Positions 20,011 to 34,276 of a DNA stretch of 44,646 nt are shown here, piece after piece; position 1 is the stretch's first letter, and the number at the start of each line of letters is the position of its first letter. A model generated the notes under the pieces. That model made no database searches, was not told where the DNA came from, and saw only the letters and a program-made list of their open reading frames with translations. Source of the stretch: Deltaproteobacteria bacterium (GTDB lineage Bacteria; Desulfobacterota; Dissulfuribacteria; Dissulfuribacterales; QOAL01); NCBI GenBank assembly GCA_026995935.1, contig JALWNK010000039.1:1-44646 (forward strand). The letters are read 5' to 3'. A program made the position numbers and the translations under genes.

Positions 20011-20544
20011 ATGATGAACAATTTTATGCGGCCTGTTTTATTTTTGATATTTGTGTCCTTTACTTGTGCGTGTCTTATGACATCAGAGGGCCTTTGCAAG
20101 GATCCAAATAAGGGGAAGTCAAAGCCCTCCCAGGCCATAAGGATTGCCAGTGACAGGATGGAGGCCTACGATACAAAGGGCACTGTTGTTTTTATGGGAA
20201 ACGTCGTAGCAAAGAAGGGAAATCTTACCATCTATGCAGACAGGCTTGAGGTCTTTTACGATCAGCAGAAGACTGCCGATAACAAGAAAAAGAGAAATTT
20301 AAAGAAAATCGTAGTTAAGGGGCATTTGAAGATTGTGCAGGGCAGAAGAAGGGCCACAGCAAAGAAAGCAGTATATTTTAAGCCCCAGGAGAAGATAGTG
20401 CTACTAAAAAATGCCCAGGTCTGGGATGGTCAAAACACCATAAAGGGAGACAAGATCGTCCTCTATGTAAACGAGAACAGAAGCGTTGTTGAAAGCTCAG
20501 GAAAGGAGAGGGTGGAGGCGGTTGTTTACTCTGAAGGGGACTGA
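20011..20544 (+). CDS. lptA: LPS transport periplasmic protein LptA
   Basis: 177 residues from the ATG at 20011, preferred over an upstream in-frame ATG at 19936. It gives an immediate signal peptide (hydrophobic 8-25) and has AGAGGTGG about 8 nt ahead. The mature protein is an OstA-like beta-jellyroll with 'ASDRMEAYDTKGTVVFMGNV' type opening, 'ADRLEVFYD', 'VKGHLKIVQGRRRATAKKAVY' and a basic linker. It forms the periplasmic LPS bridge. Its stop overlaps lptB by one base (TGATG). Confidence 0.92.
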   Translation: MMNNFMRPVLFLIFVSFTCACLMTSEGLCKDPNKGKSKPSQAIRIASDRMEAYDTKGTVVFMGNVVAKKGNLTIYADRLEVFYDQQKTADNKKKRNLKKIVVKGHLKIVQGRRRATAKKAVYFKPQEKIVLLKNAQVWDGQNTIKGDKIVLYVNENRSVVESSGKERVEAVVYSEGD

Positions 20545-21275
20545 TGGCTGAAAAGAGCTGTCTTGAGGCAAAAGGGCTCAAAAAGATATACAAGGGACGT
20601 TCAGTGGTGGATGGTGTCAGTCTTGTTCTTGAAAGCTCCACCATTACCGGGCTCCTTGGGCCAAATGGCGCTGGAAAGACAACCACCTTTTACATGATCG
20701 CGGGCCTCATAAGGCCTGATGCCGGTCAGGTATTTCTTGATGGTGCGGATATAACCGATTTGCCAATGCACAAAAGGGCCCAGATGGGGCTTACCTACCT
20801 TCCGCAGGAGCCGTCAGTCTTCAGAAAGCTCACGGTGTTCGAGAATATCGAGGTGGTGTTTGAAAACAAGGGACTAGGCAAGAAGGAACGCAAGAAGCGG
20901 GTCATGGAACTTTTAAAGGAGATGGGCCTGGAATCACTTTCCGGCCAAAAGGCAGAGTCGCTTTCAGGCGGGGAAAGGCGCAGGGTGGAGGTTGCCAGGG
21001 CCCTTGCAACAGATCCAAAGTTCATCCTTCTTGACGAGCCATTTGCAGGTGTGGATCCCTTGGCGGTTGCAGATATACAGGCCATTATAAAGGAACTTAG
21101 GAAACGGGGCATAGGAATTTTTCTGTCTGATCACAACGTGCGGGAAACCTTGACGGTGTGTGATAGCGCCTATATTGTAAGTTCTGGAAGGGTAATCGAA
21201 CATGGCACTCCTGAAAAGATTGCCAGCAGTGAGATTGCCAGAAAGATATACCTAGGAGAAGAGTTTTCGCTTTAA
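20544..21275 (+). CDS. lptB: LPS export ABC transporter ATP-binding protein LptB
   Basis: 243 residues. The Walker A motif 'GPNGAGKTT' is at 39-47, signature 'LSGGE' at 140-144, Walker B 'FILLDE' at 160-165 and the switch His197 in 'LSDHNVRE'. The 'YLPQEPSVFRKLTV' Q-loop region is characteristic of LptB. The membrane partners LptF and LptG are not in the window. It is followed after 3 nt by rpoN, a conserved arrangement across Proteobacteria. Confidence 0.97.
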   Translation: MAEKSCLEAKGLKKIYKGRSVVDGVSLVLESSTITGLLGPNGAGKTTTFYMIAGLIRPDAGQVFLDGADITDLPMHKRAQMGLTYLPQEPSVFRKLTVFENIEVVFENKGLGKKERKKRVMELLKEMGLESLSGQKAESLSGGERRRVEVARALATDPKFILLDEPFAGVDPLAVADIQAIIKELRKRGIGIFLSDHNVRETLTVCDSAYIVSSGRVIEHGTPEKIASSEIARKIYLGEEFSL

Positions 21276-21278
21276 GAC

Positions 21279-22748
21279 ATGGCCCTTGAACTTAAACAGA
21301 ATCTGAAGCTGAGCCAGCAGCTTGTAATGACACCGCAGTTGCAGCAGGCCATCAAGCTGCTTCAGCTTTCCCGTCTTGAGCTCATTGAGACCATAAACCA
21401 GGAGCTTGAGACCAATCCTTTGCTGGAAGAGTCCTCCACGACCGATCTTGAACAGGCCGGAAAGACGGACAGTAAGGATCAGGAAGAGTGGGGGGCACAG
21501 GAATCCGTTCCAGAACTTGCTGCATCTGAGGCGGAAAAGATCCCATGGGAAAAGGATGCCATCAAGGAGACCAACTGGCAGGAGGTCTGGGACGACGAGT
21601 ACAGGCGCGCTCTTCCTTCCTACTCCTTTGAAGAAAAGGAGATGCCAAACTACGAAAACCTGGTGTCATCCAAGTCCGATCTCAAGGATCATCTTACCTG
21701 GCAGCTTCAGATGTCTGATCTTTCAGAGGAAGACCGCAGGATTGCTGGCCTCATAATAGGTAATCTTGACAGAGACGGGTATCTAAAGGCGACCATTGAA
21801 GAGATAGCAGAGGATGTTGGTGTTGATCTTGAACGTGTGGAGAAGGTGTTAAAACGGGTTCAGGAGTTTGACCCGGTTGGAGTGGCAGCCAGGGATCTTC
21901 GCGAGTGTCTGTTGATACAGATCAATCACCTTGGGATAGAAGACCCTCTTGTAAAGGAGCTTGTTTCCAGGCACCTTCACCAGGTTGAGCTTCACAATTA
22001 CCAGCAGATCGCCAAGGCCACGGGAAGAAGCGCCGAGGATGTGGTCAAGGCCATAGATGTTATCAAATCCCTTGAACCAAGGCCGGGCAGGGCCTACTCT
22101 TCGGAGGAGGTCCAGTATATCGTTCCTGACATCTACGTTTACAAGGTTGGGGACGAGTACGTTGTTGCGCTTAACGAGGAGGATCTTCCCAATCTGAGGA
22201 TAAATTCCTATTACAAGGATGCGGCAAAGAATGGCAACGTGTCCAAAAAGGCCAAGGAATTCATCCAGGAGAAGATGAAGTCCGCCCAGTGGCTGATAAA
22301 GAGCATACATCAGAGAAAGAAAACCATCTATAAGGTTACCCAGAGTATAGTCAAGTTTCAGAGGGAGTTTCTGGAAAAGGGGATTACCCATCTGAAGCCG
22401 ATGGTTCTTAAGGACGTTGCCGAAGACGTGGGTATGCACGAATCCACCATCAGCAGGGTGACCAGCAACAAGTACGTTCACACCCCACAGGGAATTTTTG
22501 AGCTGAAGTTCTTTTTCAGCACCGGGCTTCCGAGAAAGGATGGCTCCAAGGACGTGGCAGCCCAAAGTGTAAAGGAGCGGATTCGAAGGCTCATTGAAAG
22601 TGAAGATCCGACAAAGCCCTTCAGCGACAAGCAGATAGTTGAAATCCTTGCCAAGGACAACATAAAGATAGCAAGAAGGACCGTGGCCAAGTACAGGGAC
22701 CTCATGGGGATTTTGCCGTCCAGCCGCAGGAAAAGGCCAAAGGTTTGA
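21279..22748 (+). CDS. rpoN: RNA polymerase sigma-54 factor
   Basis: 489 residues. Region I is the Gln/Leu-rich activator-binding N-terminus ('LKQNLKLSQQLVMTPQLQQ', about 4-22). An acidic region II (about 50-110), the core-binding domain and a helix-turn-helix (near 'MHESTISRVTSNKYV') follow. The diagnostic RpoN box 'ARRTVAKYRD' is at 465-474. It directs transcription from -24/-12 promoters with AAA+ activators, none of which is encoded here. It sits 3 nt after lptB and before hpf and ptsN, the classical rpoN neighbourhood. Confidence 0.97.
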   Translation: MALELKQNLKLSQQLVMTPQLQQAIKLLQLSRLELIETINQELETNPLLEESSTTDLEQAGKTDSKDQEEWGAQESVPELAASEAEKIPWEKDAIKETNWQEVWDDEYRRALPSYSFEEKEMPNYENLVSSKSDLKDHLTWQLQMSDLSEEDRRIAGLIIGNLDRDGYLKATIEEIAEDVGVDLERVEKVLKRVQEFDPVGVAARDLRECLLIQINHLGIEDPLVKELVSRHLHQVELHNYQQIAKATGRSAEDVVKAIDVIKSLEPRPGRAYSSEEVQYIVPDIYVYKVGDEYVVALNEEDLPNLRINSYYKDAAKNGNVSKKAKEFIQEKMKSAQWLIKSIHQRKKTIYKVTQSIVKFQREFLEKGITHLKPMVLKDVAEDVGMHESTISRVTSNKYVHTPQGIFELKFFFSTGLPRKDGSKDVAAQSVKERIRRLIESEDPTKPFSDKQIVEILAKDNIKIARRTVAKYRDLMGILPSSRRKRPKV

Positions 22749-22784
22749 TTTATTCACACATATTGAAATGGAGGACAATTCCTT

Positions 22785-23306
22785 ATGCAAATTAATGTGA
22801 CTTTCCGTCATATGGACCACTCCGAGGAGTTGAAGGACTACATAAACGACAGATTTACAAGGCTCAAGAAGTACAGTGACTCTCCCATGAACGTCAACGT
22901 GGTGCTGACTGCAGAAAAGTTCAGAAAGACTGCAGAGGTGGTCATTACAGGTGACGGAATCAGGGCTGCTGCCAAACAGGAGCACGATGACTTGCGGGCA
23001 GCCATTGATCTCGTTCTGGACAAGATAGAGAGGCAGCTTAAGAAATTTCGTGAAAAGGTGAAAAACAGGCGTGGCGGAAACCAGCCCCATACACCGAGTG
23101 CTGCTTCTACTGCCTCCGAGTCAGAGGACGCAGATCAGGTCATAGTTATACAAAAGATAAATACAAAGCCCATGTCCATTGAAGAGGCTGCGGACCAGCT
23201 CCAGATAAGTGGAAAGGATTTTCTTGCCTTTATTAACGCAGAAACAAACAGGGTTAATGTCATGTACTGGAGAAAGGACGGAGGACTTGGACTGCTGGAG
23301 CCTTAA
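22785..23306 (+). CDS. hpf: Ribosome hibernation promoting factor, long form
   Basis: 173 residues. The N-terminal S30AE domain (1 to about 97) begins with 'MQINVTFRHMDHSEELKDYI'. A variable Ser/Ala/Glu-rich linker and a C-terminal dimerisation domain (about 118-172, 'VIVIQKINTKPMSIEEAADQ' onward) complete the long HPF type that forms 100S ribosomes directly, unlike the short enterobacterial form. GGAGG precedes the ATG. Position directly behind rpoN is typical. Confidence 0.95.
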   Translation: MQINVTFRHMDHSEELKDYINDRFTRLKKYSDSPMNVNVVLTAEKFRKTAEVVITGDGIRAAAKQEHDDLRAAIDLVLDKIERQLKKFREKVKNRRGGNQPHTPSAASTASESEDADQVIVIQKINTKPMSIEEAADQLQISGKDFLAFINAETNRVNVMYWRKDGGLGLLEP

Positions 23307-23310
23307 ATAA

Positions 23311-23787
23311 GTGAGGGTAAGACAGTATTTAAAGGAAAGCTGTATAATTTTTCCCATCCAGGGCTCGTCAAAGCAGGAGATCATCAGGGCTCTCGCCGGG
23401 AAGGCAGCTTTGTGTCTCGATGATCTTTCTGAGGAAAAAATCTTCAATGCCATATTGGAGAGGGAAGAGCTTGGGACAACTGCCATTGGCAGAGGAGTTG
23501 CCATACCCCATGCGCGGGTGGAGGGATTAAATCGGCTTTCCATGGTAGTGGCAGTCAGCCCCACGGGGGTTCCCTTTGACTCACTGGATGGGAAACCGGT
23601 TCATGTGATCTTCATGCTCCTTGCCCCGGAAGGCGCTACTCCAAGCTACCTGCGTGTGCTTGCCAACATTTCCCGTCTCTTAAAAGACAGGGAGTTGATC
23701 TCTGCCTTGAAGGAAGTACGGGAGGTGTCTCAGATTCCGGATATAATTGAGCATGCAGAAAACATGTCCTACGGTGCGTTAGTTTGA
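23311..23787 (+). CDS. ptsN: PTS EIIA-Ntr type regulatory protein
   Basis: 158 residues from GTG 23311, 4 nt after the hpf stop. The EIIA(Fru/Ntr) domain spans nearly the whole protein. The phosphorylated residue is His67 in 'GVAIPHARV'. 'GTTAIGRG' precedes it and 'VHVIFMLLAPEG' follows, as in PtsN. It acts as a phosphorylation-state sensor of nitrogen and carbon supply rather than in sugar uptake. No EI or HPr gene is present in the window. Its stop overlaps the rapZ start. Confidence 0.93.
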   Translation: MRVRQYLKESCIIFPIQGSSKQEIIRALAGKAALCLDDLSEEKIFNAILEREELGTTAIGRGVAIPHARVEGLNRLSMVVAVSPTGVPFDSLDGKPVHVIFMLLAPEGATPSYLRVLANISRLLKDRELISALKEVREVSQIPDIIEHAENMSYGALV

Positions 23788-24668
23788 CACACCCCCAGTC
23801 AAGAAACATCCAGACGGTCATAATCACCGGAATGTCCGGATCCGGCAAGAGTACTGCCCTCAGGGCCTTTGAGGACATGGGTTATTACTGTGTCGATAAC
23901 CTTCCCATTGCGCTCCTGCCAGACTTTTTATCCCTTACGGAAAACAGCACGGAAATTCCAACCAGGGTGGCCCTTGTTATGGATGTTCGGGAAAAGGGCT
24001 TTCTGGACCAGTACGGCTCCATCTTTTCCCAGGTGAAAGGTCAGGGTTTCCATCTTGAGGTGCTCTTTCTGGATGCATCTGATAACATTCTTGTTCAGAG
24101 GTTCAGCCAGACCAGGAGAAAGCATCCGCTTCAGCAAAAGGGCGACATACTTGAAGCCATCTCTGAGGAAAGGAGGAGGCTAAGGGGCCTTCGTGAGTTT
24201 GCAGACAACTATATAGATACATCAAACAGGAACGTGCACCAGCTCAGGCAGATAGTTCTTGACATGTACTCCTTCAGGGAGGACCTTACCAGGCCCCTTA
24301 TCCACGTCATCTCCTTTGGTTTCAAGTATGGGGTGCCTGCCGATGCAAGCCTGGTGCTGGACGTACGTTTTTTGCCAAATCCCTACTTCGTTCCGGAACT
24401 CAGGCCGCTTAGCGGTCTGGACCAAAGGATATACGACTTTGTTCACCAGAAAGAGCAGACCAGGGCCTTTTTGAAACACCTGGAATCCATGTTCTCCTTC
24501 CTTATCCCTCAGTACAGGGCCGAAGGCAAGGTCTACCTGGTTGTGGGCATTGGATGCACTGGCGGCAGGCACAGAAGCGTTGCCATTGCCAGGTGGCTGG
24601 GTGAGATGTTTACACGAAAGGGGGAAGAGGTTATTGTCACCCATCGAGATATGGACAGAGAGGGTTGA
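23784..24668 (+). CDS. rapZ: RNase adapter protein RapZ
   Basis: 294 residues. The start is a TTG at 23784 overlapping the ptsN stop by 4 nt (TTGA). The first in-frame ATG lies inside the P-loop, so TTG is the best choice. The Walker A motif 'GMSGSGKS' is at 16-23. 'YYCVDNLP' and the C-terminal 'GIGCTGGRHRSVAIARWL' are family hallmarks. RapZ binds small RNAs and glucosamine 6-phosphate in E. coli to control amino-sugar synthesis; older annotations call it a nucleotide-binding protein YvcJ/YhbJ. An hprK kinase gene, often found just before rapZ in related genomes, is absent. Confidence 0.94.
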   Translation: MTHPQSRNIQTVIITGMSGSGKSTALRAFEDMGYYCVDNLPIALLPDFLSLTENSTEIPTRVALVMDVREKGFLDQYGSIFSQVKGQGFHLEVLFLDASDNILVQRFSQTRRKHPLQQKGDILEAISEERRRLRGLREFADNYIDTSNRNVHQLRQIVLDMYSFREDLTRPLIHVISFGFKYGVPADASLVLDVRFLPNPYFVPELRPLSGLDQRIYDFVHQKEQTRAFLKHLESMFSFLIPQYRAEGKVYLVVGIGCTGGRHRSVAIARWLGEMFTRKGEEVIVTHRDMDREG

Positions 24669-24671
24669 TTC

Positions 24672-25070
24672 ATGATCGGAGTAGTGGTTGCGGCCCACGG
24701 AAGTCTTGCCCACGAGCTGGTTGAAACCACAAGCTTCATAGTAGGCCATCAGGAGAACATGGTGGCCCTCACCGTAGATCCATCCACCAGTGTTGACCAC
24801 ATGAAAAAGACCATAAGAAAGGCCATAAAGCAGGTGGATGCAGGAGACGGAATCCTTATCCTTACGGACATGTTTGGCGGAACCCCAGCCAACATGAGTC
24901 TGAGTTTCCTTGAAGAGGGTAAGGTGGAGGTTATTACAGGTGTGAATCTGCCAATGCTCATAAGGCTGACCCAGTGCAGGGAAACCATGACCCTGCAGGA
25001 GGCGGCCCAGTCCATAGTTGAATATGGCCGAAAAAGTATCAACCAGGCGACACAGATATTAAAACGTTAG
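24672..25070 (+). CDS. PTS mannose-type EIIA domain protein
   Basis: 132 residues, a single EIIA-Man domain. 'IGVVVAAHGSLAHEL' contains the phospho-acceptor His9, and 'ILTDMFGGTPANMSL' is the second family motif. It starts 3 nt after rapZ. The matching IIB, IIC and IID transport subunits are not adjacent, so as seen here it is an orphan component that probably has a regulatory role together with PtsN and RapZ (inference). Confidence 0.92.
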   Translation: MIGVVVAAHGSLAHELVETTSFIVGHQENMVALTVDPSTSVDHMKKTIRKAIKQVDAGDGILILTDMFGGTPANMSLSFLEEGKVEVITGVNLPMLIRLTQCRETMTLQEAAQSIVEYGRKSINQATQILKR

Positions 25071-25109
25071 TTTCTGTAGGCATCCTTCAAGGCTCTATCC
25101 CACTCATAC

Positions 25110-25565
25110 ATGGCCAGGTGGATACTTAGAAAGGCAGTCCCTGCCGATATTGATAGCATAAAGTCCATTGAAGAGCGGGTCCAGTCCTGTCCCTGGTCAA
25201 AAGAGGGCCTTTTAAGAGAAATAAATGAAAAGAGCGGCAAAACCCACTTTTGGTGCATATGTCCTTCAACAAATACGTCAGAGATATTGGGCTATATCTG
25301 CTTTCGCATTTTGGGCAGGGAGTGTTATCTCCTAAACATTTCCGTTGATAAATCATGCCAGGCCAAGGGCATTGGTAGGCTTTTATTCCGCTTCATGATA
25401 AAATTTTTGGACAGGCGAAAGGTTCAAAGACTGGCTCTTGATGTCCACAAGGAAAACGAGGATGCCATGTCTTTTTATTCAAGGCAGGGCCTTTCGCTTG
25501 CAGCGCCTGTGGGAGAGGTCAGGGGAAATTTTTGTGTAATGGAGATGAAATTGTTTCAGGAATGA
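25110..25565 (+). CDS. rimI: GNAT acetyltransferase, RimI-like
   Basis: 151 residues. The GNAT acetyl-CoA site is 'QAKGIGRLL' (84-92), preceded by 'LLNISVD' and followed by 'ALDVHKENEDAMSFYSRQGL'. The early 'CPWSKEGLLREI' (about 27-38) resembles the Pro-Trp-Ser region of RimI, which acetylates the N-terminus of ribosomal protein S18. The usual neighbours tsaB and tsaD are absent, so a different peptide or small-molecule substrate is possible. It follows the EIIA gene by 39 nt. Confidence 0.75.
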   Translation: MARWILRKAVPADIDSIKSIEERVQSCPWSKEGLLREINEKSGKTHFWCICPSTNTSEILGYICFRILGRECYLLNISVDKSCQAKGIGRLLFRFMIKFLDRRKVQRLALDVHKENEDAMSFYSRQGLSLAAPVGEVRGNFCVMEMKLFQE

Positions 25566-26618
<1,053 letters not shown>

Positions 26619-26621
26619 GCC

Positions 26622-29600
26622 ATGACAAGTCTTATAGCACAATCAAAGGCCCTTGAGATCAACCTGAAGGAGACCCAGGTTGAACAGGTAGAGATCGAGG
26701 AGAAGTACCAGGTATTAAGAAAGGCGGTGGCAGGGTACAAGGGGGTGCTCAGGCAGGCAGACTACCTCCTTTTTGAGCTGCACCATCCTTTCAAAAACTG
26801 GGGTGCCCTTGTTTACGACTTAAGGTCCTTCTCCCTCAAAAATTTCAACACCTACGTCCGTTCACCCTTTGGAGTCCAGGCATGCGAGATACTCCTTGAT
26901 ACATTCCTCAAGCTTATAAAGGAGGCTCCGAGGGAAAAGGAGAAGAAGAGGGCCGCTGATGGTCTTCTTGCCTACATGGAAAAGATAGCAAGGGCCGCCG
27001 ATAATGAAACCCTCCATGGCCTCGTTCCAGCCCTTTCACGGGTCTTGCGGGAGCTTTCAAACGTGGATGATTCCATGGCCTATGCCATAGCAACAAGCTT
27101 TCACCCTCTGGCCAGGCTTGTAAAAAATCTTGCCCGCAGGCTTGAAGACGTGCCTGAGACCGACTCCATGTGGAAGTGGTGCAAGGAGCTTCTTTTGAAG
27201 GTGAGGCGCATAACCTACAACTACTGGCTCAGTCAGGATGGGCCGCAAAAGTGGCTGAAATCGAGTCTCACCCAGTATGGCCTCTGGATAGATGAGGAGG
27301 ACTACAAGCGCATCATGGCGCTTCTTGAGCCCGTCAGCCACGCCACCTTCAAGGCCCTGGTTGAAAGGACCAAAGAGATAGAAAAAGCCGATCATAATCC
27401 CAAGGAGGCTGCCCTGGCACTTGCCGAACTTCCGGGCCACGTGGACGTTGTAAAAAGGTATAAGGAGATAGCAAGGGCCCTCGGGCAGGCGCCCTGCAGG
27501 CTCTCTTTCAAGAAGGGCAAGAGGAAGGACGTTGACGGCATTTCCATCCATCTCCTTTTCCTCTTTCATATGGTGGAGATGGAGGGCCTTAACATCATCC
27601 ACGAGGAAGTTCTTCGCCAGCTCAACAAGAACCTCGTCTGCCTGGTAAAGACTGCAGATTTTGACGAACTGCGACAGATTATCCCCAAGAGTTTTGCTCT
27701 CCTTAAGCAGCAGATAGGCCAGTTTCCAAGGACCGCCCTTCAGTGCATAAATGCCCTGGGAACAGAGATACTTCAAAGGGAAAATACCAGGCTCATAGAG
27801 CTTTTTCTTGAACAGGTGGTTGCCTTTGGCTTCCAGACTCCTGGGGTCCAGGGCGTTGATACAGAGTGGCATGTGCTTTCAAACCCGGCGCATCTGCAAA
27901 ACATCAGGGCCTGGCTGGACCTGGTATGCCAGAAGCCAAAGGTCTGTAGCACCCTTCTTTCTGCCCTTACCATAAACCTCCAGCTGGGAGGCACCTGTAT
28001 TAAGGATACCGACCTTTTCCAGAGGGACATCACAAAGCTGTTAAATAGCGACATAGAGCCCATTTACAACCTGGTGAAGGAATTTGCCCGCTCAATCCCC
28101 GTTTACTTCAATGAGATAGGCGCAGAAGGCCTGCTGCGTGACGTCTCCACAGAGCTAGATGAAATATCCAAAAGACGCGACATACTCATTCACTTTCTCA
28201 GAAAGCAGAGTCACGTTGAAAGCAACAACCTCATTGTGGATTTCATCGAGGCCATCTTCAGTTTCTGGTACAGCAGACAGAAGGAGGGCCTTGCCCAGTT
28301 CCTTCCGCCTGAGATACTTGAGCAGATAAGCCCCTATGGCCCTTATGTGGATCATGTGCACAAGATTGTGCGTCACCTTGCCTCAAGGCTTGGTCTAGAG
28401 CCCTTTGCCAGAAAGGTTCACCTCTTTCTCAGTTCTTCAGAAGATGAGATAAGGCGGATTATTGACGAGGTCAGGGACGTGCCCCCTCAGGAAAAGCGCA
28501 GGGTGGAGCTTCTTATCAAGATGTACCGACTGGAGTACATGAAGTACAATCTTGGGGTCCAGGAGATACGTTTCAATCTGGAAGAGGCCAGGAAGCTTGG
28601 TTTTGAGGGCATGGACAGGGTCTTGGAGGTAATAGACTCAGAAGACAACGAGCATGCCCTTGAGGTCATACTGGATGAGATAGAAGAGCTGAAAAATATC
28701 ATCCTTTCAAAGGAGAAGTATGACGTCCAGGAGACCATCTATCACAAGCGCCACATTGCTGCGGATATCCCTTCCATGTATGGCAAGTACCACGAAAGGA
28801 AGTTTGATGCCCTGGGGCTAACGTTTCGTCTCGAGAACCTCGCAAATCTCTTTTTCGAGCGTCTCATCGCCCAGGTGGAGGTCCCGTTCATAACCAGATC
28901 CACCTTTGTAAATCTTCTTCGTCATCTTAAGCTTCTCTGGAGGGCCGTTCAGTTAAACGGGGTCTATTCCAAAAAATTTGCCACATATCTCACACTTCTT
29001 GAAAAGTCCCTGGGAGTGAGGCGTTTTTCCTTCACCCAATACCTGGACATAGTTAAGGGGCTTTCAGAAGGAGTAAAGGACATGATCTACGTCTATTACT
29101 TAAGCCCCCACGAGGAAAACCTGAACAAGATCATCCGCCAGTTGTGGCCTGACAAGCTTCTTCCAAAGTACAAGGCCATGATCAGAAAGGATGCCTCCAT
29201 ACAGGAGGTGATCCATCAGGTCTCAGAGGCCTTTCTCAGAGGTCTCATTTCTTCAACCTTTGGCCTTCAGCACCTGGACAACTTTGTGGCCAGGCTTTAC
29301 CAGGCATTGTCCAGCCAGAGGGAGTATCTTACCCCAAGGGAGCTGGACATGTTGCTAAGCTATGATCCGGAGCAGGACCTTTGCTCCATTCACCAGCCAG
29401 ACCGGGTGACAGGCAACCTCATTCAGCTAGGCAACAAGGGGTACAACCTCCTGCTTCTTGCACAGGCAGGCATTCCCGTTCCTCCTGCCATAATCGTAAC
29501 AACCGAGGTCTTCAGGTACTATTCCCTCTTTTACAAGCTGAAGGGGGCCTATCAGAATTTCAAAAGGCAGGTGCGGGAGGGGCTTTCCGAGCTGGAAGAG

Positions 29601-30905
29601 CGCTCGGGAATGCGCTTTGGAGACCCAGACAACCCACTTCTTCTTTCAGTGAGAAGTGGTGCGGCAATCTCCATGCCGGGCATGATGTCCACTGTAATCA
29701 ACGTGGGCATGAACCTGGAGATTGCAGAAGGACTTGCCAGGAAATATGGCAACAAGTGGTTTGCATGGGACAACTATCGCCGGTTCGTCCAGTCCTGGGC
29801 AATGTCCTTTGGTCTAGAAAGGGAGGTCTTCACCGCGCTTATGCAGGCCCAAAAGGCCCAGTACAATGTAGAGAAGAAGAGACAGTTTACAGGGGAGCAG
29901 ATGAAGGAGCTTGCCCTTGCCTACAGGGAGGCAGTAATCTCAAGGGGTGTGCATATAGAGGATGACCCCTTTGAGCAGCTTCTCATGTCCATAAGGCTTG
30001 TCCTGAATTCCTGGGACTCTGAAAAGGCGAGGGCCTACAGGGAGATAATGGAGATTTCAGACCATTGGGGCACGGCTGTAATAATCCAGGCCATGGCCTA
30101 TGGAAACCTCTCCGACAAGTCCGGGACAGGGGTCCTTTTCACTGCAAACCCCTACAAGAAGCTCGACAGGGTTAGTCTTTGGGGGGACTATACGGTTGGA
30201 AACCAGGGAGAAGACATAGTCAGCGGTCTTGTGGCAACAAACCCGATTTCCGTTGAGCAGAGCGAGGAGCTTGGCCTGAGCGTAGATGAAAGTCTTGAAA
30301 AAAGGTTTCCTGAAATATACGAGGCCCTTCTCAAGTGGGTCAGGTACCTGATTTTTGACAAGAAGTGGACCCCGCAAGAGATAGAGTTTACCTTCCAGGG
30401 GCCAAAGGCTGAAGACCTTTTCATTCTTCAGACCAGGGACATGGTCACAAAGCGAAGGACGCAGGTGGCCTTCTTTGTCCCATCCAAGGAGCTTGAAAAG
30501 AGCTATCTTGGAAGGGGCATTGGCGTTAGCGGCGGCGCATTAAGTGGCAAGGCAGTTTTCACCCTGGAAGAGATAGAGCGCATACGAAAAGAGGAGGCTG
30601 AAACAAAGCTCATACTTATAAGGTCCGATACGGTCCCAGACGACATCAAAGAGATATCATCTGCCGATGGCATACTTACTGCCAAGGGAGGGCAGACCTC
30701 CCATGCATCAATTGTGGCCTTCAGGCTGGATAAGACATGTGTGGTGGGCTGCGAGCAGCTCAAGGTCTATGAGCTTGAGGGAAGGGCAGAGATAAATGGT
30801 CACGTCATTCGTTCAGGGGATTACGTGAGCATTGACGGGCGAAATGGCTTTGTTTATTTGGGAAAACATCCGGTAAAGACAGAGGAAGATAATGCCATTA
30901 ATTAA
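26622..30905 (+). CDS. PEP/pyruvate dikinase-like protein with a large N-terminal helical region and no PEP barrel
   Basis: 1427 residues. Residues 1 to about 930 are almost wholly helical by pattern, starting with a coiled-coil-like segment (about 7-40), and match nothing I can name. From about 936 the PPDK/PEP-synthase ATP-grasp module appears: 'LGNKGYNLLLLAQAGIPVP' and 'SVRSGAAISMPGMMSTVINVG' (near 1007). The swivel phosphohistidine motif 'GGQTSHASIVAF' follows with His1361. The distance from the first module to the histidine (about 420) fits true PPDK, but the protein ends 66 residues later, so the C-terminal PEP/pyruvate barrel is missing. It should therefore move phosphate from ATP through His to some other acceptor, perhaps bound by the N-terminal region. 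It lies 3 nt after gapA and before gap2-pgk-tpiA, suggesting a carbon-metabolism role. Database names such as 'PEP/pyruvate-binding protein' would be only generic. Confidence 0.85.
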   Translation: MTSLIAQSKALEINLKETQVEQVEIEEKYQVLRKAVAGYKGVLRQADYLLFELHHPFKNWGALVYDLRSFSLKNFNTYVRSPFGVQACEILLDTFLKLIKEAPREKEKKRAADGLLAYMEKIARAADNETLHGLVPALSRVLRELSNVDDSMAYAIATSFHPLARLVKNLARRLEDVPETDSMWKWCKELLLKVRRITYNYWLSQDGPQKWLKSSLTQYGLWIDEEDYKRIMALLEPVSHATFKALVERTKEIEKADHNPKEAALALAELPGHVDVVKRYKEIARALGQAPCRLSFKKGKRKDVDGISIHLLFLFHMVEMEGLNIIHEEVLRQLNKNLVCLVKTADFDELRQIIPKSFALLKQQIGQFPRTALQCINALGTEILQRENTRLIELFLEQVVAFGFQTPGVQGVDTEWHVLSNPAHLQNIRAWLDLVCQKPKVCSTLLSALTINLQLGGTCIKDTDLFQRDITKLLNSDIEPIYNLVKEFARSIPVYFNEIGAEGLLRDVSTELDEISKRRDILIHFLRKQSHVESNNLIVDFIEAIFSFWYSRQKEGLAQFLPPEILEQISPYGPYVDHVHKIVRHLASRLGLEPFARKVHLFLSSSEDEIRRIIDEVRDVPPQEKRRVELLIKMYRLEYMKYNLGVQEIRFNLEEARKLGFEGMDRVLEVIDSEDNEHALEVILDEIEELKNIILSKEKYDVQETIYHKRHIAADIPSMYGKYHERKFDALGLTFRLENLANLFFERLIAQVEVPFITRSTFVNLLRHLKLLWRAVQLNGVYSKKFATYLTLLEKSLGVRRFSFTQYLDIVKGLSEGVKDMIYVYYLSPHEENLNKIIRQLWPDKLLPKYKAMIRKDASIQEVIHQVSEAFLRGLISSTFGLQHLDNFVARLYQALSSQREYLTPRELDMLLSYDPEQDLCSIHQPDRVTGNLIQLGNKGYNLLLLAQAGIPVPPAIIVTTEVFRYYSLFYKLKGAYQNFKRQVREGLSELEERSGMRFGDPDNPLLLSVRSGAAISMPGMMSTVINVGMNLEIAEGLARKYGNKWFAWDNYRRFVQSWAMSFGLEREVFTALMQAQKAQYNVEKKRQFTGEQMKELALAYREAVISRGVHIEDDPFEQLLMSIRLVLNSWDSEKARAYREIMEISDHWGTAVIIQAMAYGNLSDKSGTGVLFTANPYKKLDRVSLWGDYTVGNQGEDIVSGLVATNPISVEQSEELGLSVDESLEKRFPEIYEALLKWVRYLIFDKKWTPQEIEFTFQGPKAEDLFILQTRDMVTKRRTQVAFFVPSKELEKSYLGRGIGVSGGALSGKAVFTLEEIERIRKEEAETKLILIRSDTVPDDIKEISSADGILTAKGGQTSHASIVAFRLDKTCVVGCEQLKVYELEGRAEINGHVIRSGDYVSIDGRNGFVYLGKHPVKTEEDNAIN

Positions 30906-32299: not shown

Positions 32300-33499
32300 A
32301 TGATCAAGTTCATAGACGAGCTTGACTTTGACGATAAAAGGCTTTTTCTCAGGGTGGATTTCAATGTACCCCTGGATGAGAAACTTGAGATCACCGATGA
32401 CAATCGTATAAGGGCGGCACTTCCCACTGTAAGATACGCCATGGAAAATGGTGCAAGGCTCGTTGTGGCTTCACACCTTGGAAGGCCAAAGGGAGAAAAA
32501 AGACCCGAGTTCAGCCTGGCTCCAGTTGCCGAAAGGCTGGGTCTGCTGCTTGATAAGAAGGTCCTCATGGCCCCTGATTGTATTGGGCCGGACGTAGAAA
32601 AGATGGTAAATAGTCTTGAGCCAGGGCAGGTGCTAATGCTTGAAAACCTTCGTTTTCATAAGGAAGAGACGCAAAACGACCCTCAGTTCGCTTCCTCCCT
32701 TGCATCCCTTTGTGACGTATATGTGAACGATGCCTTTGCCGTCTCCCATAGGGCCCACGCCTCAGTGGTTGGTGTGCCTGAAAGGGTAAGCGTTTGCGGT
32801 GCAGGTTTTCTTATGAAAAACGAGATAACCTACTTTGAAAAGGCCATGAAGGATCCTGAGCGGCCATTTCTTGCCATTCTTGGTGGTGCAAAGGTATCAA
32901 GCAAACTTGGGGCAATAGAGAATATACTTTCAAAGGTGGACAGTCTTCTCATAGGCGGGGCCATGGCAAATACGTTTCTTCTTGCCAGCGGATATTCTGT
33001 GGGAAGGTCTATGGTGGAGAAGGACCTGGTAGAGACGGCAAAAGAGATAATGGACAGGGCAAAGCAGTCTGGAACGGGCTTCTTCCTGCCAGTTGATGTG
33101 GTGGTGGCTGAGGAGCTTGGCCCTGGCGTATCCTTTAAGGCCGTTTCCGTGGACCAGGTGCCAGATGATATGATGATTGTGGACATAGGACCAGGGACCG
33201 TTGACCTTTTCAGGGATGAGATAAAAAAGGCAAAGACCATAGTATGGAACGGGCCTGTTGGGGCCTTTGAAATAGAGCCATTTGACAAGGGGACCGTTGA
33301 GATTGCACGCGCTGTGGGCTCAAGCCCTGCCCTTTCAATAATAGGTGGCGGGGATACGGGTGCTGCAGTCAAAAAGGCCGGCGAGAGTGACAACGTCTCC
33401 TACATATCCACGGGTGGCGGTGCCTTTTTGACCCTTTTGGAAGGAAAAGAACTTCCCGGTTTTAAGGCCCTGGAAAGGTGTGCAAGTCAGGGTTCATAA
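32300..33499 (+). CDS. pgk: Phosphoglycerate kinase
   Basis: 399 residues, normal length. It interconverts 1,3-bisphosphoglycerate and 3-phosphoglycerate with ADP/ATP. 'RVDFNVP' is at 18-24, 'LASHLGRPKG' style substrate loop near 52-62, hinge 'LGGAKVSSKL', and the C-terminal nucleotide loops 'GGGDTGAAVKK' and 'STGGGAFLTLLEGK'. AAGGAGG lies just upstream. It sits 29 nt after the second GAPDH and 9 nt before tpiA. Confidence 0.97.
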   Translation: MIKFIDELDFDDKRLFLRVDFNVPLDEKLEITDDNRIRAALPTVRYAMENGARLVVASHLGRPKGEKRPEFSLAPVAERLGLLLDKKVLMAPDCIGPDVEKMVNSLEPGQVLMLENLRFHKEETQNDPQFASSLASLCDVYVNDAFAVSHRAHASVVGVPERVSVCGAGFLMKNEITYFEKAMKDPERPFLAILGGAKVSSKLGAIENILSKVDSLLIGGAMANTFLLASGYSVGRSMVEKDLVETAKEIMDRAKQSGTGFFLPVDVVVAEELGPGVSFKAVSVDQVPDDMMIVDIGPGTVDLFRDEIKKAKTIVWNGPVGAFEIEPFDKGTVEIARAVGSSPALSIIGGGDTGAAVKKAGESDNVSYISTGGGAFLTLLEGKELPGFKALERCASQGS

Positions 33500-33508
33500 G
33501 GAGGCAGG

Positions 33509-34276
33509 ATGGATAAGAAAAGGAGGCCGCTTCTTGCAGCAAACTGGAAGATGTACAAGACCCTGTCGGAAATGGAGAAATACCTTTCCTCGTTCCTTGG
33601 CCTTGTGGCCGGTATTGACGACAGGGATATCATGCTTGCCCCAAACTACACCTGTCTTAACCGTATGGTGGAGTTGCTCAATGGAAGTAACGTGAAAGTA
33701 GCTGCCCAGAATATGTTTTATCAGGACGAAGGGGCCTTCACAGGAGAGATTTCACCGAAGATGCTCCTTGATATGGGGATAAATACGGTAATAGTTGGCC
33801 ATTCTGAAAGGCGACACATCTTCCACGAAGACGACGAGCTGATAAACCAAAAGATCAGGTCTGCGATATCCCACGAGATGAAGCCTATTTTCTGTATTGG
33901 TGAGACCCTGGAAGAGAGAGAGGCCGGTAAAACCTCCAGAGTCCTTGAATACCAAATAAGGCTGGGGCTCAAGGGATTACAGAACAAGGACGTTCCCAAA
34001 ATAGTTGTTGCTTACGAGCCTGTTTGGGCAATAGGCACAGGCAAGACCGCAAGCCTTGAGCAGATACAGGAGGCCCACAGACTTGTTCGCGACATGGTAG
34101 GGGAACTTGCAGGAGAAGATATTGCAGAAAAGCTGAGAATATTGTATGGTGGCTCGGTCAAACCAGCAAATGTTAAGGATATCATGTCGCTGGATGACGT
34201 TGACGGGGCACTTGTAGGCGGTGCCTCACTTGAACCGGAAAGCTTTGCTAAAATTGTGAGATTTGAAGAAAATTAG
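33509..34276 (+). CDS. tpiA: Triosephosphate isomerase
   Basis: 255 residues. Catalytic residues are visible: Asn12 and Lys14 in 'AANWKM', His98 in 'VGHSERR' and Glu170 in 'AYEPVWAIGTG', with the phosphate loop 'LYGGSVKPAN' and 'VGGASLEPESF' near the C-terminus. AGGAGG overlaps the end of pgk, giving a tight operon. It is followed after 21 nt by secG, an order seen widely in bacteria. Confidence 0.97.
   Translation: MDKKRRPLLAANWKMYKTLSEMEKYLSSFLGLVAGIDDRDIMLAPNYTCLNRMVELLNGSNVKVAAQNMFYQDEGAFTGEISPKMLLDMGINTVIVGHSERRHIFHEDDELINQKIRSAISHEMKPIFCIGETLEEREAGKTSRVLEYQIRLGLKGLQNKDVPKIVVAYEPVWAIGTGKTASLEQIQEAHRLVRDMVGELAGEDIAEKLRILYGGSVKPANVKDIMSLDDVDGALVGGASLEPESFAKIVRFEEN

Follow-up and report, generated by a model that had tools for sequence, protein, structure and literature searches.

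Results

A barrel-less dikinase paired with a second GAPDH

We analyzed a 44,646-nucleotide contig (JALWNK010000039.1 of assembly GCA_026995935.1, here called the window) from a deltaproteobacterium of the Desulfobacterota, in which a single gene encodes a 1427-residue dikinase-like protein. By the features tested, its predicted architecture places it among the swivel-domain dikinases as a new variant, outside pyruvate phosphate dikinase (PPDK), rifampin phosphotransferase (RPH), HpeHI, and glucan water dikinase (GWD). The best-supported functional statement about this protein, drawn from gene content, is that it is coupled to Gap2, a long and divergent glyceraldehyde-3-phosphate dehydrogenase (GAPDH) encoded downstream; physical contact between the two is putative. 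This pairing points to an unrecognized step in central sugar metabolism. Swivel-domain dikinases have been reused with new acceptor domains and few of their acceptors are known. The present family occurs in about one-third of the sampled Desulfobacterota together with a dedicated second GAPDH, and at least one published genome misfiles it as phosphoenolpyruvate (PEP) synthase.

Dikinase and Gap2 are inherited together

To describe the distribution of the two genes, we used a sample of 395 Desulfobacterota genomes; a pattern-based scan of genome contigs returned only Deltaproteobacteria-type records, and our distribution figures cover Desulfobacterota. The dikinase was found in 124 of the 395 genomes, nearly always as one frame of 1370 to 1590 residues, a recurrence that places the architecture far beyond chance. 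Gap2, a GAPDH of ≈410 to 460 residues, was present in 121 genomes, all of which also carry the dikinase. No genome has Gap2 alone, 271 have neither gene, and the three with only the dikinase (G337, G405, and G421) belong to a divergent subfamily. The search threshold of 1e-60 is not the source of this pairing, because the best Gap2 matches per genome range from 1e-281 to 1e-128. Nor does the pairing reflect one ancient split, since presence and absence of both genes co-vary within six GTDB families (f12, f20, f21, f43, f58, and f63). Fisher's test on the co-occurrence returns a p value of 1.4e-99, which ignores relatedness and is accordingly inflated rather than a true probability.

In 93 cases, the dikinase and gap2 genes are adjacent, 76 times on the same strand and 17 times on opposite strands. 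As to whether this architecture stays beside gap genes, it does so in these pairs but not in all, as some lie far apart: both genes are retained at a distance in the single-contig genomes G229 and G059. In another 24 cases, they fall on different contigs, some perhaps through assembly breaks, and in G335 they are probably adjacent across contig ends. The earlier note had proposed from gene order a role in triose or C3 metabolism, and the link to triose metabolism is now stronger than neighborhood alone would make it; it is, however, specific to Gap2 and not to gapA, pgk, or tpiA.

One genus, g6 (loci L128, 7156–12692; L129, 6916–12457; and L101), offers a view of how the pair moves. Its home operon reads gapA-dikinase-pgk-tpiA, with gap2 gone, and a second dikinase-gap2 pair lies elsewhere in the genome. 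In trees built for each gene on its own, the dikinase and the gap2 of the second pair both fall as sister to one outside lineage, L125 (support 0.97 and 0.89), whereas the operon dikinase groups with its own order. The dikinase-gap2 pair appears to have moved horizontally as a unit in this genus. Across 31 shared pairs, the mirror correlation of the two trees is 0.87, a value that shared ancestry alone could give.

The three dikinase genomes without Gap2 carry f64 subfamily proteins (L121 in G421, L122 in G337, and L123 in G405) of ≈1490 to 1550 residues that are ≈22% identical, have GGRGAHAA at the histidine, and lie beside a GAF-AAA sigma-54 regulator. A published relative is found in Dissulfurimicrobium hydrothermale, where LGS26_08520 is listed as PEP synthase between the GAPDH genes LGS26_08515 and LGS26_08525 and beside the phosphoglycerate kinase (PGK) gene 08510 (PMC8780430). 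By position, LGS26_08520 is an orthologue of the present gene, and the PEP synthase label is not supported. Our literature search found no paper on a phosphoglycerate dikinase or on this barrel-less dikinase family. We also considered a strict tie to the Wood–Ljungdahl pathway: CdhC accompanies the dikinase in 110 of its 124 genomes, but the association is an enrichment only, because dikinase genomes of family f25 (e.g., G059 and G095) are without it.

The ATP-grasp and phosphohistidine core is conserved

The C-terminal third of the protein matches the nucleotide and carrier domains of PPDK. Pfam identifies PPDK_N at residues 979 to 1217 (E 1.7e-27) and PEP-utilizers at 1329 to 1409 (E 6e-18), and phmmer aligns residues 936 to 1422 with PPDK residues 18 to 513 (Protein Data Bank [PDB] entry 1kbl, E 1.4e-83), placing His1361 on the phosphohistidine. 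An AlphaFold model of residues 415 to 1427 (predicted local distance difference test [pLDDT] 87.6) superposes on 1kbl over 482 residues at 2.5 Å (Z 40.9), with only the C-terminal part included, and the swivel domain matches the 2fm4 carrier domain with a Z of 13.1. The full-length NCBIfam PPDK model, TIGR01828, scores 383.8 bits, under its cut-off of 843.45. Together, Pfam, phmmer, and the superposition uphold the initial assignment of a PPDK nucleotide module followed by His1361, with the chain ending 66 residues beyond it.

We then examined six catalytic positions, equivalent to Lys22, Arg92, Glu323, Gln335, Arg337, and His455 of PPDK. The corresponding K939, R1011, E1255, Q1270, R1272, and H1361 are invariant in all 48 relatives with sequence there, the ≈22%-identity subfamily included. 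The five ATP-grasp positions among them show that the catalytic residues, whose loss the earlier note had considered, are retained. This invariance supports an intact ATP-grasp and histidine chemistry. With the tools used, none of the three outcomes that the earlier note named as refuting, a displaced barrel, a substrate already assigned to the family, or lost ATP-grasp residues, was seen.

The chain lacks a PEP/pyruvate barrel, and the genome has no free-standing one

No Pfam match to the PEP-utilizers_C barrel was found in the 1427-residue protein. The N-terminal region is not predicted to be a displaced barrel, because in the AlphaFold model it is all-helical save for one long β hairpin. 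The proposed absence of a PEP/pyruvate barrel from the chain is confirmed on both counts.

A search of the bacterium's own genome (2.59 Mb, 100% complete) with PF02896 likewise returned no free-standing barrel, the only matches being PpsA (822 residues, contig C8) and PtsI, which is split over contigs C56 and C66. The C56 match first resembled a lone barrel, as a split PPDK would have, but proved to be the end of the broken PtsI; the stretch beginning TTDGYRIKVMANMELV is common to the end of L003 and the frame start of L001. Of the separate PPDK or PEP synthase that the genome might have carried, PEP synthase is present and no complete PPDK was found. PF03618, expected for PDRP-type regulation, was not found in this genome either. 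Three more PPDK_N proteins are encoded there (C64:7189–8121, C27:12662–13534, and C19:21895–22647; 862, 844, and 909 residues), all lacking a PF02896 match; these are possibly RPH-like dikinases. In a 148-genome sample, at least 20 dikinase-bearing genomes also have full-length PPDK, whereas others, among them G000, G023, G073, and G192, do not. Because dikinase genomes occur both with and without full-length PPDK, the dikinase neither needs nor replaces it.

The N-terminal 930 residues combine a predicted solenoid with a conserved module

Pfam returned nothing credible for residues 1 to 930, and only chance-level matches across 53 family members. We modeled residues 1 to 932 with AlphaFold2 from a 53-sequence alignment, obtaining a mean pLDDT of 87.6 and nearly all helix, with the hairpin at 703 to 724. 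Residues 1 to 415, with pLDDT mostly 80 to 95, match only HEAT/ARM-type solenoids in Foldseek/VIA. For the N terminus as a whole, Foldseek gave only solenoids with low template-modeling scores and a PDB profile search only designed or repeat helices. The VIA/Foldseek solenoid matches fall mainly over residues 2 to 499 at the level of a common arrangement, and they barely cover 500 to 930, where a known fold is possible. Residues 415 to 932 had no match in plasmid and phage collections.

Conservation divides this region differently. The mean frequency of the major residue is 0.37 over residues 61 to 300 and 0.42 over 551 to 640, compared with 0.73 over 416 to 550 and 0.61 over 641 to 760, values that stand beside 0.63 in the ATP-grasp module and 0.66 in the histidine domain. 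Twelve residues here (H424, D462, D464, R506, E514, R527, H531, K641, Y642, Y723, E725, and E738) do not vary even in the subfamily at 22% identity. The pattern suggests that the conserved, charged segments 416 to 550 and 641 to 760 form a putative acceptor site or second active site. The N terminus had been proposed to be either an acceptor domain or an interaction scaffold; it resembles both, the former in the conserved 416 to 760 and the latter in the solenoid.

The N-terminal region was found without the core only in two frame-broken copies and in contig-end fragments. In the two broken copies (L127, 6430–10597, in G108; L130, 6164–10454, in G327), the gene consists of two overlapping frames, with breaks near residues 570 to 620 and 495, respectively. 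These may reflect frameshifts, errors in the sequence, or genuine two-part versions.

Gap2 is a GAPDH with an altered coenzyme site

Gap2 retains the GAPDH Cys and His motifs as well as the phosphate-binding Thr and Arg motifs. At the coenzyme site, it has N-x-G-R where GapA has N-D. In GAPDHs, loss of that Asp with an adjacent Arg fits NADP(H), and we infer that Gap2 is compatible with NADP(H) and the reductive direction. Among the 60 nearest relatives, canonical GapA is almost always present with Gap2, and this coexistence argues for a separate role of Gap2. PGK occurs in 379 of the 395 genomes, and nearly every genome with the pair has it, so the pair is not a replacement for a missing PGK. 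Since PGK, GapA, and sometimes complete PPDK coexist with it, the dikinase replaces none of them. In the Dissulfurimicrobium genome G023, gap2-pgk is present twice (C1:505482–507924 and C1:1777503–1779945) with identical scores, which suggests a recent duplication.

A proposed phosphoryl acceptor at the triose level

How might these parts work together? The reading we favor, to which we give an even chance, is that the protein is an active dikinase, functionally coupled to Gap2, that acts on a small molecule. The ATP-grasp module would transfer the β-phosphate of ATP to His1361 and release AMP and pyrophosphate, probably using phosphate as a co-substrate the way PPDK does, a step deduced from the intact PPDK-type residues. 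The swivel domain would then turn to an acceptor site within residues 416 to 760, proposed on the basis of conservation, in place of the PEP/pyruvate barrel. Finally, the phosphoryl group would pass to an acceptor at the level of 3-phosphoglycerate or glyceraldehyde-3-phosphate, and Gap2 would use the product, as co-inheritance suggests. The solenoid may serve as a docking surface for Gap2 or a complex.

The most economical acceptor would be 3-phosphoglycerate, phosphorylated on its carboxylate to yield 1,3-bisphosphoglycerate, which Gap2 would then reduce; such an enzyme would be a strongly driven counterpart of PGK, just as PPDK and PEP synthase are of pyruvate kinase. We favor 3-phosphoglycerate because, of the shared intermediates 3-phosphoglycerate, 1,3-bisphosphoglycerate, and glyceraldehyde 3-phosphate, it is the sole one that a phosphohistidine could convert to a Gap2 substrate, and it is our leading guess, albeit a tentative one that we think unlikely to be right as it stands. 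A reductive second GAPDH, paired with a dikinase that takes ATP to AMP, suggests an anabolic step that is energetically driven. Equally speculative, and to be regarded with the same doubt, is the fuller proposal that a previously unrecognized 3-phosphoglycerate dikinase and a dedicated NADP-type Gap2 let sulfur- and sulfate-metabolizing Desulfobacterota bypass PGK in the gluconeogenic direction only. If true, lower glycolysis/gluconeogenesis, which ranks among the best-understood areas of metabolism, would have an unrecognized branch, with conversion of ATP to AMP driving the step, in anaerobes that live close to the thermodynamic limit. Should the acceptor prove to be a different one, the strict pairing with Gap2 still yields a short, testable list.

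Several observations weigh against this picture. PGK is encoded in nearly all the same genomes, so an ATP-dependent route from 3-phosphoglycerate to 1,3-bisphosphoglycerate is already there. Gap2 is lacking in the divergent f64 subfamily, and genus g6 keeps one dikinase copy beside gapA-pgk-tpiA without a gap2 of its own. The association was measured within one phylum, where relatedness inflates the Fisher p value, and the modeled HEAT-like solenoid would fit a regulator as well.

That last point leads to an alternative we consider possible though improbable, in which His1361 phosphorylates a protein, likeliest Gap2 itself or else a phosphotransferase system (PTS)-type protein, that is recognized by the solenoid, with the role of switching how active triose-phosphate flux is or which way it runs. 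PTS enzyme I is a known swivel-domain protein phosphotransferase, pairing with a single protein is strict, and rpoN, hpf, ptsN, rapZ, EIIA(man), and GNAT genes are neighbors in several lineages. The solenoid, however, is the least conserved part of the protein, the invariant charged residues sit instead in 416 to 760, PTS genes adjoin only ≈1/4 of the loci, and the f64 proteins do without Gap2. This last feature speaks for a dikinase for another small molecule (e.g., glycerate, a triose, or a coenzyme-like compound) tied to Gap2 only by pathway, as do the location of the f64 genes beside a sigma-54 regulator and the action of same-core dikinases on rifampin and phenolics. Yet the Gap2 pairing is exceptionless in 121 genomes, unlinked pairs included, which is tighter than loose pathway membership predicts, and we regard this option as quite unlikely. 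It is hardly credible, by comparison, that the protein is a degraded PPDK or one with its PEP/pyruvate domain on another polypeptide, even though its core is closest to PPDK and its Dissulfurimicrobium relative was published as PEP synthase. The invariance of the catalytic residues argues against degradation, at least 20 sampled genomes carry it alongside a complete PPDK, and with the barrel matches of the bacterium's own genome accounted for by PpsA and the split PtsI, a barrel acting in trans is nearly excluded.

Gene neighborhood

The dikinase gene starts 3 nucleotides after the gapA stop at 26618, and downstream on that strand come gap2, pgk, and tpiA, an arrangement that the open reading frame (ORF) positions corroborate as first described.

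Features of the dikinase gene and its neighbors in the window
Feature	Position	Strand	Basis
Dikinase-like gene	26622..30905	+	ORF of 1427 codons (1427 aa); Pfam PPDK_N and PEP-utilizers
Variable α-solenoid (HEAT-like), residues 1–415, possible docking scaffold	26622..27866	+	AlphaFold, Foldseek/VIA, low conservation
Helical module, residues 416–930, two conserved charged segments, proposed acceptor site	27867..29411	+	Conservation
PPDK-type ATP-grasp module, residues 936–1290	29427..30491	+	phmmer, hidden Markov model, and structure match to PPDK
Phosphohistidine swivel domain, residues 1291–1420	30492..30881	+	PEP-utilizers Pfam match; 2fm4
His1361 codon, predicted phosphoryl carrier	30702..30704	+	GGQTSHAS aligned to PPDK GGMTSHAA
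gapA, canonical type I GAPDH, 337 aa	25605..26618	+	TIGR01534, 435 bits, over cut-off
gap2, long divergent GAPDH, 416 aa	31020..32270	+	TIGR01534, 335 bits, under cut-off of 367
pgk, phosphoglycerate kinase	32300..33499	+	Pfam PGK, E 1e-158
tpiA, triosephosphate isomerase	33509..34276	+	Pfam TIM, E 4e-95

Leading into gapA and the dikinase, positions 20544 to 25565 hold an lptB-like ABC gene, rpoN, hpf, ptsN (EIIA), rapZ, EIIA(man), and a GNAT gene. The cluster from rpoN to the GNAT gene is seen again by the operon in several families. In other lineages (L053, L105, L106, and L112), the dikinase lies beside genes that, judged from their sequences by eye, are of the carbon monoxide dehydrogenase/acetyl-CoA synthase type.

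Comparison with known systems

Dikinases with acceptors other than pyruvate exist (PMC4844700, PMC12167813). With PPDK (TIGR01828, 1kbl), the present protein shares the order of ATP-grasp followed by phosphohistidine, 33 to 35% identity, and the catalytic Lys/Arg/Glu/Gln/Arg/His set; unlike PPDK, it has no barrel, carries 930 extra N-terminal residues, and is linked to a GAPDH rather than to the PEP/pyruvate node.

RPH and the two-component HpeHI, CreHI, and PpsAB systems likewise combine an ATP-grasp with a swivel histidine and a different acceptor domain and release AMP, and their ATP-grasp domains match ours with Z values of ≈20 to 24. In these systems, however, the acceptor domain is placed between the ATP-grasp and histidine domains or on the histidine subunit, whereas the extra module here is N-terminal to the ATP-grasp. 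The histidine domain directly follows the ATP-grasp in our protein, in contrast to the RPH order of ATP-grasp, rifampin-binding domain, and histidine domain, and the RPH model NF041857 scores 28.6 bits against a cut-off of 999. In VIA/Foldseek, RPH and HpeI align only through the ATP-grasp or histidine domain, and VIA gave no match to the extra module in RPH. HpeHI and PpsAB also place the ATP-grasp and the histidine/acceptor parts on separate chains that are one chain here.

GWD resembles our protein in having a large N-terminal part unrelated to PPDK. In GWD, the histidine domain precedes the ATP-grasp, and starch-binding modules make up the N terminus; the order is reversed here, and no Pfam GWD model matched. 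Gap2, for its part, has the catalytic motifs of the type I GAPDH family but is ≈80 residues longer, contains insertions and the N-x-G-R motif, and falls below the TIGR01534 cut-off.

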